The notes under the pieces are model-generated. The model worked only from the letters and a program-made list of their open reading frames with translations, had not been told where the DNA came from and ran no database searches. Positions 14,283 to 51,131 of a DNA stretch of 64,000 bases are shown piece after piece (the first letter of the stretch is position 1; each line of letters opens with the position of its first letter). The DNA comes from Oxalobacteraceae bacterium OTU3CAMAD1 (GTDB taxonomy: Bacteria; Pseudomonadota; Gammaproteobacteria; Burkholderiales; Burkholderiaceae_D), in contig CP099650.1 of the NCBI GenBank assembly GCA_024123915.1, positions 4,960,001 through 5,024,000 on the forward strand, in the 5' to 3' direction. The position numbers were made by a program, and so were the translations under genes.

Positions 14283-17200
14283 CTACCCTTCCGCCAGGCC
14301 GCCCACGCACGAATCGAGGAACCCTGCGTCGTTCACCATGGTTTCATGATCGGCATCGACCGGCCAGTGGCGCAGCCTGCCGGTGCCCAGTTGTGCGGAA
14401 ATGCGCGCGATATCCTCGGGGCGCCGTCCCGGCGTCCACCAGGCGTGCGTTGCCGCTTGCACGGCCGGATACGTATCGGCCGAACGCGCGACCGCCCGGT
14501 CCAGCGCCCGCCCGATCAGGCAGCGTCGCACCAGGTCTTCGGCAGCCAGCCCGGCAAAGGAACCGTTTGGCACGATACGCCCTTGCGCCATGTGCGACTG
14601 CACCCATGCCAGCAGCGCCTGCTCTCCCTCGAGCGGATCGCCGATATCGGCTGGCAACTGCGGAATGTCCGCCCCCTCCCCCTCGCCGCACACTTTACGC
14701 AACAGTCCTTCAAACTCGCCGCGCCAGGCTTCGCCTTCGCCATCGCCCAATTGGCTGAGCTCCGGCGTGTCCACCAGGCCCAGGAAGGCGACCCGCGTCC
14801 CTTGTTGCTCCAGGTGCGAGGCGACCAGCGCCGCCAACGGTCCGCCCAGCGACCATCCCAGCAGATGATAGGGTCCCTGCGGCTGCACAGCCTGGATAAA
14901 GCGCGCATAGTCGACGGCCATGGTCTCGAGCGAATGGTCGCGATGCACCGGGTCGATCAAGGTGCGGCAGGTAACGCCATACACCGACCGCACGCCCGCC
15001 AGCCGCTGCGCCAGCGACAGATAGCCCAGCACCGTGCCGATGCCCGAGTGGATGCAGAACAGCGGACCGGGTTCGGCAAGATGGCGGTTCAACGGCACCA
15101 CGGGATTGGCGACGCTTTGCGCCAGCGCGTGCAGCGTCGGCTTGCCCAGCATATCCTTCAGCGTCAGCTGCAAGCCGGGGATGTCGCGCCGGCGCGCGGC
15201 GCTGACGACCCGCAGCGCCGATATCGAATGCCCACCGAGTTCGAAGAAGTTGTCGTGCCGGCCAATGCGCTCGACACACAGCACCTCGCTCCAGATCGCC
15301 GCCAGCGCATGCTCCACGATTCCCTGCGGCGCTTCGTAGGCGGCACCGGCGATCCATTCCGGCGCCGGCAAGGCCTTGCGGTCGACCTTGCCGTTGGCGT
15401 TCAACGGCAGGCTGTCGAGCACCACGATGGCGGCCGGCACCATATAATCTGGCAGTTGCCGGCCCAGGCTTGCGCGCAGTAGCGCCGGATCGGCGCTGTG
15501 GCCCGGCGCCGGCGCCACATAGCCCACCAGCCGCGTGCCGGCCGGCAACTCCTGCGCCACCACCACGGCTTCGCGCACTTCAGGCTGCGCCAGCAACTGC
15601 GCCTCGACCTCGCCCAGCTCGATGCGCAAGCCGCGCACCTTCACCTGGTGATCGATGCGGCCCAGGTATTCCAGCTGCCCCTCCCCGTTCCAGCGCACCA
15701 GGTCGCCGGTGCGATACAGCCGTCCGCCACCGCCGAATGGGTCGGCCACGAAGCGCTCGGCGCTCAGCGCCGGCCGGTGCAGGTAGCCCCGGCCCAGCAG
15801 CTCGCCGCCGATGTACAGTTCGCCGGCCACACCGCGCGGCACCAGGTTCAGGCCCGCGTCCAGCACGTGGGCCTGGGTGGCGGCGATGGGGCGGCCGATC
15901 GGCACCAAGGTCGCACCGTCTGCCCGGCAGGTCCATTGGGTGACGTGGATCGTCGTTTCCGTCGGGCCGTAAAGGTTTTGCAGGCTCACGCCGTGGAGCC
16001 GCCGCAGCGCCTCGCGTTGCGTCGCCGCCGGCATGGCTTCGCCGCCGCAGATCACGTAGCGCAGCCGCGTTTCGCGCTCGATGCCTTCGTGGGCCAGGAA
16101 GGCCTGCAGCATCGCCGGAACGAAGTTCATCGTGGTGACGGCGTGGCGGCGGATCAACGCCGTGATCCGCTCCGGATCGCGCTGGTCGCCAGGGTTGGCC
16201 ACCACCAGGCGCACGCCGGTCGTCAATGGCCAGAAAATCTCCCAGACCGACACGTCGAAGCCGAACGGCGCCTTGTGCAGCACGGTGTCGTCGCGGGTCA
16301 GGCCGTAGGTCTCCTGCATCCAGCGCATGCAGCCGCTCAGCGAGCGATGGCGAACCGCCGCGCCCTTGGGCCTTCCGGTCGATCCCGACGTGTAGATCAC
16401 GTAGGCCAGATTGTCGCCGTGCAGCCCCGGTTGCGGATCATGTTCCGGCTCGGCGCCGAGATCGAGCGCCTCCAGCTCCAAGACCTTGACCGCGTTCGCC
16501 GCCGGCAGCCGCCGTCCGACTTCGCGGTCCGTCAACAGCAGGCCGATGCCGCTGTCCCGTATCATGTAGTCCATGCGGTCGGGGGGATATTCCGGGTCCA
16601 GCGGCACGTAGGCGCCACCGGCCTTCAGAACCGCCAGCAATGCGACCACCATGCCGACCGAGCGTTCGACGGCGATGCCCACCTTGACTTCGGGCGCCAC
16701 GCCAAGCGCGATCAGGCGGTGCGACAGACGGTTGGCGCGCGCGTTCAATTCGCGATAGGTCAGCACGTCGTCGCCGAACAGCAGCGCCTCCGCGTCCGGC
16801 TGGCGACGGGCCTGTAATTCGAACAGCCGCTGCACCGGTTCCACGTCCGGATACGAGCGCTCGTCGACGCTCCAGCGGCGCAACTGCGATCGCTCGTGCG
16901 CGTCCAGCAGTTCCACCTCGTCCAGCGCCTGGTGCGGTCGCTCCGCCAATGCGGCCAGCAGTGTCGCGTAGTGGGCAGCCATGCGGGCGATAGTGCCGGC
17001 CTCGAACAGTTCTGCCGCATAGGTGACGCCGATATGAATCCGGCCCTCGTTGTCCTCCACGCCGCTGATCACCAGTTCGAACTGCGCCCCTTGCCCACCC
17101 AGCGCGTACTCTTCCAGCGTCAGGCCGGGCAATTGCGCCAGTGCGCCGCCATCGTGCCGCTGGTGGTTGAACATCACCTGGAACAGCGGATTGGTGCCGA

Positions 17201-18356
17201 GGTGACGCTCCGGCTGCAACGCCTCGACCAGTTGTTCGAACGGCAGGTCCTGGTGCTCCTGCGCGCCAAGAGCCGCCTCCCTGGTCGCCGCCAGCAAATC
17301 GTCGAGACGCTGGCGCGCACCGATCACGCCACGCAGAACCTGCGTGTTGACGAAGAAGCCGACCACGGATTCGGTTTCCGCGCGATGGCGGTTGGCGATC
17401 GGCACACCAACACGAATATCCAGCTCTCCCGTATAGCGATACATCAGCGCCTGCATGCCCGTCAGCAGCAGCATGAAGACGGTGGCGTCGGCGGCGCGGG
17501 CACGGCTGCGCAAGCCGGCGGCCAGGCCGGCGGGCAACGCCAGGTCGTGCCGCGCGGTCGTGTATTGGCCGTCGGACCGGCGCGGGTGGTCGGTGGGCAG
17601 TTGCAGCATCGGCTGCTCGCCGCCCAGCTGCGCCAGCCAATAATCCAACTGGCGCTGCCGCTCGCCGGCTTCGAGCCAGTTGCGCTGCCACGCCGCGTAA
17701 TCGGCGTACTGGATGGTCAACGGCGCCAGGTCAGGCACCCGGTCCTCGATGCGCGCCTGGTACTGCCGTACGAATTCGTCGATGATGATCTGCATCGACC
17801 AGCCGTCCGAAATAATGTGGTGCATGACGACCACCAATACGTGCCTATCGGCCGCCTCGCGAATCAGGCCAACCCGCAACAGCGGTCCTTGTTCCAGGTC
17901 GAACGGCGTGCGATGCAGCCGCGCCGCCTCGGCGTGGACGCGCTCTTCGCGCACCGACGCGGGCTGTCCATCCAGATCGATGTACTCCAGCAGCGCGCCC
18001 GTTTCCAGCACCCTCTGCTCGATGCCGCCATCCGGACGGGCGCGAAACACCGTTCGCAGCGACGCGTGACGCAGCACCAGCGCATCGAAGCTGGCGCCCA
18101 GCGCGACCCTATCGAGTTCGCCATGTAACCGCAGTGCGCCGGTGATATGGTAGGCGGAACTGTCACGATCCAGCTGCCACAGCATCCATTGCCGCGTTTG
18201 GGCGTACGAACAGACGCCCTGGTTGGCGGCGGCTGCGGCGATGGGCAGCCTGCCAAAGTCGATCCCTTGCGATTTCAACGCTTGCAGGAAGGCCGTCTGC
18301 TTTTCCTTTGAAAAGCCCGCAAAGCGGACGGCGATGTCATAGTCCTTGGTTCTCAT
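14283..18356 (-). CDS. NRPS4: terminal module C-A-T-TE
   Basis: A 1357-residue terminal synthetase. Domains: condensation (about 45-475, HHIISDG near 180), adenylation (about 495-1000, [11 protein letters not shown] near 655), carrier (about 1010-1080, GGHS near 1042) and thioesterase (about 1095-1350, GWSLGG near 1165 with a later DADHE). The pocket reads D-V-W-N-I-G-L-I-H-(K), identical to module 2 of NRPS2. It is nearest to threonine codes (DFWNIGMVHK), but the need for two hydroxamate ligands suggests N5-hydroxyornithine. The thioesterase should release the finished peptide by hydrolysis or cyclisation; which one cannot be read. Its ATG follows the NRPS3 stop with no gap (TGAATG). The A domain is close in DNA to the one at about 33.4-34.2 kb. 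Confidence 0.92.
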
Positions 18357-50865: not shown

Positions 50866-51131
50866 TGCGCGACGGTCCCGGCGCCGGAGGCCTGGCGCGC
50901 CTGCTCGTCCATCCAGGTGCGCAGCGACAGCGGGCGCATGTCGGTCCAGTGCTGCTCGACATAGGCCGAGACCAGCTGCTTGTCGCCGCGCACCTGGACG
51001 CCGTGTTCATCGGCGACGGCGGTCCAGCCGCCGGGGACGTTCTTCCAGTGCGGCCAGATCGAATACTGGCCTTCGTGGTTGATCAAAACGATGAAGGTCT
51101 CGCCTTCGCGATCGAAGCAGCTGGTGGTCAT
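50862..51131 (-). CDS. mbtH: MbtH-like protein
   Basis: An 89-residue MbtH-family protein, a small chaperone that binds and activates NRPS adenylation domains. The signature is complete: NHEGQYSIWPHWKNVPGGW (about 22-40) and the later WTDMRPLSL (about 66-74). The start is the ATG at 51131, with AAGGAG 6 bases before it; longer upstream frames lack a ribosome site. It is the first gene of the ~37 kb biosynthetic operon and sits behind the promoter at 51205-51229. Confidence 0.95.
   Translation of the reverse strand: MTTSCFDREGETFIVLINHEGQYSIWPHWKNVPGGWTAVADEHGVQVRGDKQLVSAYVEQHWTDMRPLSLRTWMDEQARQASGAGTVAQ

Follow-up and report, generated by a model that had tools for sequence, protein, structure and literature searches.

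The delftibactins of Delftia are described as products of a line with a FAAL start and a PKS step; they have a cyclic N-OH-Orn end, and their genes include an Orn hydroxylase, a formyltransferase and a standalone Asp hydroxylase, DelD being the enzyme assigned to Asp. In the same account delftibactins C-F retain a lipid and delftibactin A is given without one (PMC11472818). The crochelins of Azotobacter chroococcum are reported to contain 4-amino-3,5-dihydroxypentanoate (PMC6664392), a gamma-amino acid that would derive from Ser and malonate, and crochelin has been cited with a C-terminal putrescine (PMC10587159). Variochelins share with these a FAAL, a PKS-extended amino acid (here a basic one), hydroxamates and hydroxy-Asp; according to one description they are built with Arg, methylmalonate, Pro and two acetyl-hydroxy-Orn, keep their lipid and owe Asp hydroxylation to a domain inside VarG (PMC10999976). 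A further cluster, on plasmid pOB3b3 of the methanotroph Methylosinus trichosporium OB3b, is uncharacterised; its best antiSMASH match is reported as crochelin (PMC12811070). A survey of metallophore regions grouped 57% with known references and listed 1093 unlike any reference (PMC12971057), so a new member alone would not be unusual.

The window analysed here, 64 000 nucleotides of Oxalobacteraceae bacterium OTU3CAMAD1, holds a locus that we take, with a probability of about 0.8, to belong to the FAAL-PKS-NRPS class of siderophore loci (delftibactin/crochelin-like) and to be a close sister of the OB3b plasmid cluster, with the route predicted below. Five collinear genes on the minus strand (14283-49068), with no internal stop in any of the five reading frames, make up the assembly line, in the domain order FAAL-ACP-C-A-T / KS-AT-KR-ACP / 3x(C-A-T) / C-A-T-E-(C-A-T)x2 / C-A-T-TE. 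Pfam models and models derived from the present cluster detected eight NRPS modules and one PKS module, which matches the nine chain-building modules that an earlier note had read from the letters. All nine condensation-family matches in the 7.48-Mb genome (E ≤ 0.001) fall inside the cluster.

The first gene (43666..49068) encodes FAAL-ACP-C-A(Lys)-T, with the FAAL domain at about 47347-49068 and fatty-acyl-AMP ligases among its best solved relatives. It is followed by the type I PKS module KS-AT-KR-ACP (39098..43669), in which the AT carries HAFH, without YASH, a motif that we take to mark malonyl specificity, and the KR keeps both its cofactor motif and its YxAAN motif. Then come a three-module NRPS for Ser, X and Dab (29348..39088), a second for Ser (with E domain), Asp and Ser (18357..29351) and a last NRPS gene, C-A(X)-T-TE (14283..18356), whose TE lies at about 14283-15074. 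The KS motif, the TE motif (GWSLGG) and the carrier-protein motifs are all present. The only E domain found in the line (24732..26039, approximate bounds, minus strand), with HHLVVDG and FNYLGQ motifs, would give D-Ser; no dual-C motif was found there. The C domain preceding Dab, together with GGDSI carrier motifs on the first Ser and first X modules, hints at further D-configured residues, so that the configuration given here is provisional.

A-domain codes were extracted by motif reading and by alignment, and the alignment version was used. In assembly order they are DGEDHGTVVK, DVWHVSLIDK, DVWNIGLIHK, DIWEMTADDK, DVWHISLIDK (followed by the E domain), DLTKVGHVGK, DVWHVSLIDK and DVWNIGLIHK (followed by TE). 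The fourth is, as we understand it, a Dab code, and the locus contains a dedicated aminotransferase gene, both of which support the predicted Dab module. One compilation gives DGEDHGTVVK as a Lys code (PMC12283262); another table enters DGEDHGTV for P. syringae pyoverdine (first side-chain module; best match bacitracin Lys) and DVWHVSLI for Ser (PMC3207962). The resulting order, Lys - reduced malonate - Ser - X - Dab - D-Ser - Asp - Ser - X, agrees with the module order, three Ser modules and TE release proposed earlier.

The open reading frame at 43666-50046 (2126 aa) is over-extended. The true start of the FAAL gene lies near 49068, not 50046, downstream of an AAGGA ribosome-site-like motif, and the longer frame conceals a separate TauD-family hydroxylase gene (49095..50069, minus strand; PF02668). 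The protein conserves HxE, H and R; it is 72-75% identical to 13 standalone sequences and 43-47% identical to seven sequences of the other type. In six of these seven the same ORF also encodes a C domain. Its identity to the enzyme of the D. acidovorans FAAL-PKS locus, presumably the delftibactin locus, is 72%. This DelD-like enzyme is predicted to convert Asp to beta-hydroxy-Asp, the target being judged from homology.

The locus extends beyond 14283-51131, with accessory genes down to 1787 on the left and an ECF sigma gene on the right. On the plus strand the left part encodes an FhuF-type siderophore-iron reductase (1787..2548; Pfam FhuF, NCBIfam TIGR03951 above cut-off), a PvdA-like L-ornithine N5-monooxygenase (6971..8272; PF13434), a diaminobutyrate--2-oxoglutarate transaminase for Dab supply (8310..9791; NF005393, 754 bits, cut-off 671), an ECF sigma factor (9983..10474; Pfam Sigma70 regions 2 and 4), a FecR-like anti-sigma regulator (10339..11673; PF04773), the true start of which is probably downstream of the ORF start, and a TonB-dependent siderophore receptor with an STN signalling domain (11796..14222; PF00593, PF07715 and PF07660, TIGR01783 above cut-off). 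The best solved relative of the monooxygenase is the L-ornithine 5-monooxygenase 3s5w (E 2.6e-126), and its only NCBIfam match is of the histamine type (193, cut-off 700). The minus strand carries a PvdE-like cyclic-peptide export ABC transporter (2536..4284; TIGR01194, 619 bits, cut-off 286) and a PvdQ-like acylase of the penicillin-amidase family (4330..6828; PF01804), annotated with a start probably too far upstream. The acylase scores 553 bits against NF051460 (PvdQ), below the cut-off of 950; its PDB relatives are PvdQ and penicillin-acylase-related chains, and SNA starts its beta-chain. Its predicted role is to cleave off the fatty acyl group once the precursor is in the periplasm.

To the right, all on the minus strand, lie genes for a type II thioesterase (50119..50865; PF00975), an MbtH-like protein of 89 aa (50862..51131; PF03621, no NCBIfam match), with its start set from a ribosome site, and an ECF sigma factor of iron-starvation type by position (51247..51837; Pfam and NCBIfam). 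The right end previously placed at 51131 thus agrees with a plausible MbtH start. ExbD-like (54193-54660; PF02472) and ExbB-like (54611-55489; PF01618) genes, also on the minus strand, could supply energy to TonB, their membership of the locus being unproven. A PvdF-like formyltransferase gene lies 1.9 kb left of the window (genome 4957282-4958106); the protein is 76% identical to its OB3b counterpart, and its one NCBIfam match is PurN (37, below the cut-off of 150). A search of the genome for an N-acetylating enzyme gave no Acetyltransf_8 match (E ≤ 0.001), which favours formylation of hydroxy-Orn. Exporter, acylase, formyltransferase and Orn hydroxylase are homologous to PvdE, PvdQ, PvdF and PvdA of pyoverdine maturation; the line itself differs from that of pyoverdine, as we understand the latter, in its PKS step and because none of its eight codes is of the chromophore type.

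The architecture, FAAL-ACP-C-A-T and one KS-AT-KR-ACP followed by NRPS modules and TE, together with genes for hydroxamate and hydroxy-Asp formation (Orn hydroxylase, TauD and, outside the window, the PvdF-like enzyme), places the locus in a class for which we use our own label, FAAL-initiated PKS-NRPS siderophores (delftibactin/crochelin/variochelin-like). Among 23 annotated loci, 21 from a set of 80 and two from a PKS genome search, 16 have a FAAL-C-A protein adjoining a KS-AT PKS (15 with KR in view, one at a contig end), and two further loci show the arrangement once their stretches are extended. All 23 were chosen by PKS similarity, so these counts show the class and not its frequency. 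With this start common to many related loci, the PKS step is not the rarity that the earlier note had supposed.

The nearest relative found is OB3b: of the 30 domains or proteins compared across 12 relative stretches, 16 had their top match there, some narrowly, and its PKS falls with the present one in a six-sequence clade (SH-aLRT 99). The two clusters share the order MbtH-TEII-TauD-FAAL/NRPS-PKS, the Lys-PKS start, the X-Dab and Asp modules at the same positions and the X-TE end, as well as acylase, PvdF, Orn hydroxylase, Dab aminotransferase, exporter, TonB, FecR and ECF genes. Within the frame Lys-PKS-?-X-Dab-?-Asp-?-X-TE, the A codes agree in kind at five of eight positions. At the other three, OB3b has X for Ser at residue 2, a code that we take to mean Gly, with no E domain found, for D-Ser at residue 5, and Thr for Ser at residue 7; its modules are also divided otherwise among proteins. 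A Herbaspirillum-labelled entry ('UNVERIFIED_ORG', P0153) is a three-module NRPS whose codes run Ser-X-Dab as they do here; the part of it searched, the Dab-module region, is 60% identical. Another entry (P0094) is a PKS in the clade of the present one, and both give a 556292-base contig. One siderophore cluster, that of serobactin, is described for H. seropedicae SmR1 (PMC6037834). The PKS shares 62% identity with a PKS of A. chroococcum, presumably that of crochelin, and both lines would make a gamma-amino acid from an amino acid and malonate, Ser-derived there and of Lys type here. Delftibactins differ in residue order and contain Arg and Dhb; the D. acidovorans locus begins with the code DIWHISLIEK, then Asp and Thr, and the Delftia pieces seen have neither a Dab module nor a Dab aminotransferase.

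At E ≤ 1e-200 the Dab C-A didomain was found in one of 399 Burkholderiales genomes, its own, while the Roseateles aquatilis family (299 genomes) gave no match; at E ≤ 1e-180 it was found in two of 392 genomes of its own family, the second at 43% identity. Two candidate places were scored per genome in the matches shown, so these negatives are weak. Of 999 plasmid records with a match, two reached 60-80% identity, both OB3b. When 399 and 294 genomes were searched with the PKS, most matches at a loose threshold were weak ketosynthase ones (394 of 399, E ≤ 0.001); these searches supplied the relatives G238, G177, G598, G497 and G621. The residue order was not recognised in any description among openly licensed PMC papers, a weak absence.

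From the genes, domain order, codes, conserved motifs and homology seen in the sequence, we infer the residues incorporated, the sites of hydroxylation and formylation, cyclisation, loss of the tail and iron binding as follows. A fatty acid would be loaded onto the ACP by FAAL; acylation of Lys, one round of malonate extension and ketoreduction would then yield a 4,8-diamino-3-hydroxyoctanoyl unit, to which the line would add in turn Ser, N5-formyl-N5-hydroxy-Orn, Dab, D-Ser, beta-hydroxy-Asp and Ser. The final module would contribute N5-hydroxy-Orn, which the TE would release, probably in the form of a cyclic hydroxamate. With both hydroxamates and the hydroxy-acid as ligands, the product would hold Fe3+ at six places. 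The acyl precursor would reach the periplasm via the PvdE-like exporter, where the PvdQ-like acylase may trim the tail, and TonB receptor, FhuF and ECF/FecR proteins would serve uptake and control. The class itself is known; the cluster is best described as one of its uncharacterised members, predicted to incorporate a gamma-amino acid derived from Lys. We see about an even chance that its product is a new siderophore with N-terminal 4,8-diamino-3-hydroxyoctanoic acid, belonging to a cross-class series; de-acylated, it would be a hydrophilic Fe(III) chelator, strongly cationic because of the free amines of the Lys-malonate unit and Dab. If so, the methanotroph-plasmid frame would recur as a series across bacterial classes, diversified by swaps of Ser, Gly, Thr or hydroxy-Orn modules. 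Should the prediction hold, a Lys-derived polyketide amino acid would join the siderophore parts list, a beta-proteobacterial chromosomal cluster would be linked to the copper-responsive cluster of a model methanotroph, and exact masses would be available to look for. The ions computed for the predicted product are [M+H]+ 953.4534 for the de-acylated form ending in cyclic hydroxy-Orn, 999.4589 for the linear formyl form, and 1135.6205 and 1163.6518 for the cyclic form carrying a C12:0 or a C14:0 acyl chain.

The product is very probably an iron-scavenging peptide. FAAL, PKS and NRPS genes by themselves do not prove iron binding, and could make a surfactant or antibiotic lipopeptide; such a product is highly improbable here, given the nearby genes for Orn hydroxylase, formyltransferase, Asp hydroxylase, FhuF, siderophore TonB receptor, FecR and ECF factors. 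The siderophore line claimed in the earlier note is borne out by domain order and accessory genes, although its label 'lipopeptide' has become uncertain because the locus encodes a PvdQ-like acylase. The same line might release an amphiphilic product that keeps its tail, with the acylase acting elsewhere or only partly. The lipids retained by variochelins and delftibactins C-F make this a real possibility, which we rate somewhat below even in view of the position of the acylase gene beside the exporter and of its homologues in the OB3b, Massilia atriviolacea, Chitiniphilus purpureus, G598, G621 and Cupriavidus pampae loci; none was seen in the partial G177, Delftia, Variovorax, Rhodoferax and Bordetella stretches.

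The identity of X bears on the number of hydroxamates. The code DVWNIGLIHK is listed among those for modified Orn, yet DGEDHGTVTK, one residue from the first-module code, is listed for Orn (PMC12283262), and an older in silico table assigns DVWNIGLI to Thr (PMC3358349). X could then be Thr, which its resemblance to the Thr code DFWNIGMVHK (three positions differ) would also allow, with (hydroxy)Orn loaded by the first module and a single hydroxamate at the N-terminal unit. This is unlikely because of the gene set of C. purpureus: its 60-kb piece has PvdA- and PvdF-like genes beside modules only for Ser, Ser, Asp, Thr and X, which leaves X as the sole Orn candidate. OB3b, moreover, has DFWNIGMVHK alongside three X modules in one line. 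X is best read as N5-hydroxyornithine. Least probable of all, to the point of being negligible, is a variochelin-type cluster proper, with an Arg-methylmalonate start and fused hydroxylase. The FAAL-C-A-PKS start and the hydroxamate and hydroxy-Asp logic are common to both (PMC10999976), but the Lys code, the malonyl-type AT, the residue list and the hydroxylase, standalone and remote from the other type, rule variochelin out as the closest relative; a code fitting the Arg pattern of PMC12283262, DAEDLGAITK, occurs instead in the Rhodoferax and Bordetella loci. The distinction from variochelin drawn earlier therefore stands, while its choice as closest precedent gives way to OB3b and relatives, beside which the PKS tree and domain comparisons put the cluster.

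Iron control of the locus is inferred. Scans for tRNAs and for Rfam families (at gathering score) gave nothing, no site lies within three mismatches of the Fur consensus, and the one PvdS-type promoter box (1.4 expected by chance) is in a catabolic region. At a threshold of 13 identities in 19, which was our choice, five weak Fur-box-like sites were observed, where 10 first-order Markov randomisations averaged 0.3. One falls within an NRPS gene and four are intergenic: one before FhuF, two overlapping at 11731..11755 upstream of the TonB receptor, and one at 51871..51889 upstream of the right-hand sigma gene.

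The 7.48-Mb genome is a single contig, of which the window represents bases 4960001-5024000. Domain annotation identified five minus-strand genes encoding eight NRPS modules and one PKS module, with the assembly order FAAL-ACP-C-A-T (about 43666-49068), KS-AT-KR-ACP (39098-43669), three C-A-T modules (29348-39088), C-A-T-E-C-A-T-C-A-T (18357-29351) and C-A-T-TE (14283-18356). All nine condensation-family matches in a whole-genome search lie within this cluster. The A-domain pockets, read by motif and by alignment, carry the codes DGEDHGTVVK / malonyl PKS / DVWHVSLIDK / DVWNIGLIHK / DIWEMTADDK / DVWHISLIDK+E / DLTKVGHVGK / DVWHVSLIDK / DVWNIGLIHK-TE, confirming the nine-module list of an earlier note. 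The AT motif is HAFH; the KR retains cofactor and catalytic motifs, the TE retains GWSLGG, and both HHLVVDG and FNYLGQ are present in the E domain.

DGEDHGTVVK is listed as a Lys code and DGEDHGTVTK as an Orn code (PMC12283262). For pyoverdine of P. syringae 1448a, the code of the first side-chain module is DGEDHGTV, which best matched bacitracin Lys (PMC3207962). DVWHVSLI denotes Ser and DFWNIGMV Thr (PMC3207962), with DLTKVGHVGK denoting Asp/Asn (PMC12283262). DVWNIGLIHK (residue X, read as N5-hydroxyornithine) is among codes taking N-modified Orn (PMC12283262), although DVWNIGLI is assigned to Thr in an earlier in-silico table (PMC3358349). Independent support for modified Orn comes from Chitiniphilus purpureus: it carries genes for an Orn hydroxylase and a PvdF-like protein, but the modules of its line in the 60-kb piece are limited to Ser, Ser, Asp, Thr and DVWNIGLIHK. 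We take DIWEMTADDK to be a diaminobutyrate (Dab) code, an assignment backed by a Dab aminotransferase gene in the locus. The cluster has a single E domain, which would give one D-Ser, and showed no dual-C motif. GGDSI carrier motifs on the first Ser and X modules (29348-39088), with the start of the C domain before Dab, nevertheless suggest that D-residues may occur there.

The 2126-aa ORF at the start of the line is not the actual gene; the FAAL gene begins near 49068. Under this over-extended frame, in a different frame, lies a complete TauD-family hydroxylase gene (49095-50069), which an ORF-only reading overlooks. The genome has three TauD-family matches, the other two far from the cluster. 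By alignment, the hydroxylase retains HxE and H for iron binding, as well as the distal R. It is 72-75% identical to 13 of 20 relative rows, including two Delftia loci, and only 43-47% identical to the other seven, six of which share an ORF with a C domain (some records appear twice). The delftibactin hydroxylase DelD is standalone (PMC11472818), whereas that of variochelin is embedded in VarG (PMC10999976); the cluster enzyme is of the DelD kind.

Among 12 stretches from relatives, several partial, so that complete ones are favoured, the cluster on plasmid pOB3b3 of Methylosinus trichosporium OB3b was the best match for 16 of the 30 domains or proteins compared, some narrowly; the other 14 fell to Massilia, Cupriavidus, Variovorax, Delftia, Chitiniphilus and one further genome (G621). 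Alignment-based codes for OB3b (stretches L127 and L089) read Lys-PKS-X-X-Dab-Gly-Asp-Thr-X-TE, and its accessory genes match those here. The OB3b cluster is copper-responsive, in a methanotroph host. It was reported to resemble crochelin most by antiSMASH (PMC12811070), in passages that name no product for it. Among the 12 stretches, only OB3b matched the Dab module well (65-67%; next 41-45%), and this module is rarer than the FAAL-A-PKS start. In a PKS tree (34 rows, quick method, SH-aLRT support only, 8 of 31 inner branches drawn open), the cluster PKS grouped with two proteins, one from a metagenome (91%) and one labelled Herbaspirillum (SH-aLRT 99), and this trio joined OB3b, a second metagenome protein and Paucibacter oligotrophus (SH-aLRT 99); a Delftia row and three Variovorax rows were placed elsewhere. 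The Ser-X-Dab order recurs in P0153, a protein labelled Herbaspirillum. A further protein, labelled uncultured Duganella (P0123), carries X and Dab codes and is 95% identical across the Dab-module region searched (residues 2100-3246), which makes a bacterium of the Duganella/Massilia group the probable host.

On sequence grounds, we conclude that the cluster is an uncharacterised member of a known siderophore cluster class, and that its closer kin are the clusters of OB3b, delftibactin and crochelin rather than that of variochelin. The earlier description, variochelin-like but distinct, stands as to distinctness, but the standalone hydroxylase, the PKS tree and the OB3b matches (16 of 30) argue against variochelin as nearest precedent. 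Nor do the relatives bear out the proposed rarity of the PKS step. Among 23 annotated loci (21 of 80 PKS relatives plus two from a further search), a FAAL-C-A protein adjoins a KS-AT PKS in 16, with a KR in view in 15 of these; Rhodoferax and Bordetella ansorpii show the same arrangement once their stretches are extended. The FAAL-A-PKS start therefore recurs across many genera, although selection by PKS similarity shows recurrence rather than frequency among all siderophore clusters.

The three Ser modules (18540-21524, 26196-29183 and 35945-38813) are paralogous, with 83-88% nucleotide identity over 2.3-3.0 kb, and may stem from a recent duplication, or from gene conversion, within the line. 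The two X modules are 75% identical to each other and 69-77% to the Ser modules. Such paralogy agrees with the Ser/Gly/Thr/X exchanges that separate this line from that of OB3b.

Left of the line are genes for ornithine N-hydroxylase, Dab aminotransferase, PvdQ-like acylase, cyclic-peptide exporter, FhuF, ECF sigma factor, FecR and TonB receptor; to the right lie those for MbtH, for a type II thioesterase and for another ECF sigma factor. The acylase matches PvdQ structures and retains SNA at the beta-chain start, but scores 553 bits against a PvdQ model cut-off of 950, so orthology is not established. Delftibactins occur with and without lipid (PMC11472818), so the tail could be kept or removed; by analogy with delftibactin, the product would be cyclised C-terminally. 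A site search gave weak Fur-like sites before FhuF, the TonB receptor and the sigma gene, with nothing above chance in stricter consensus searches for promoter or Fur sites. The locus extends left to a PvdF-like formyltransferase gene 1.9 kb past the window edge (genome positions 4957282-4958106; 17258-18109 of stretch L142). Its product has a Pfam formyl transferase match, is 76% identical to the OB3b counterpart and did not match the curated PvdF model. Beside it are a second TonB-dependent siderophore receptor (L142:14475-16637), without an STN domain match, and then a GyrI-like protein. Right of the cluster are ExbD- and ExbB-like genes (54193-55489), beside a 518-aa ORF (52691-54247) with no Pfam match up to E 1. 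Beyond these, 55512-61592 is likely a catabolic island encoding two EthD-domain proteins, an ornithine cyclodeaminase/mu-crystallin family protein, a LysR regulator, an aldehyde dehydrogenase and a DHDPS-family protein.
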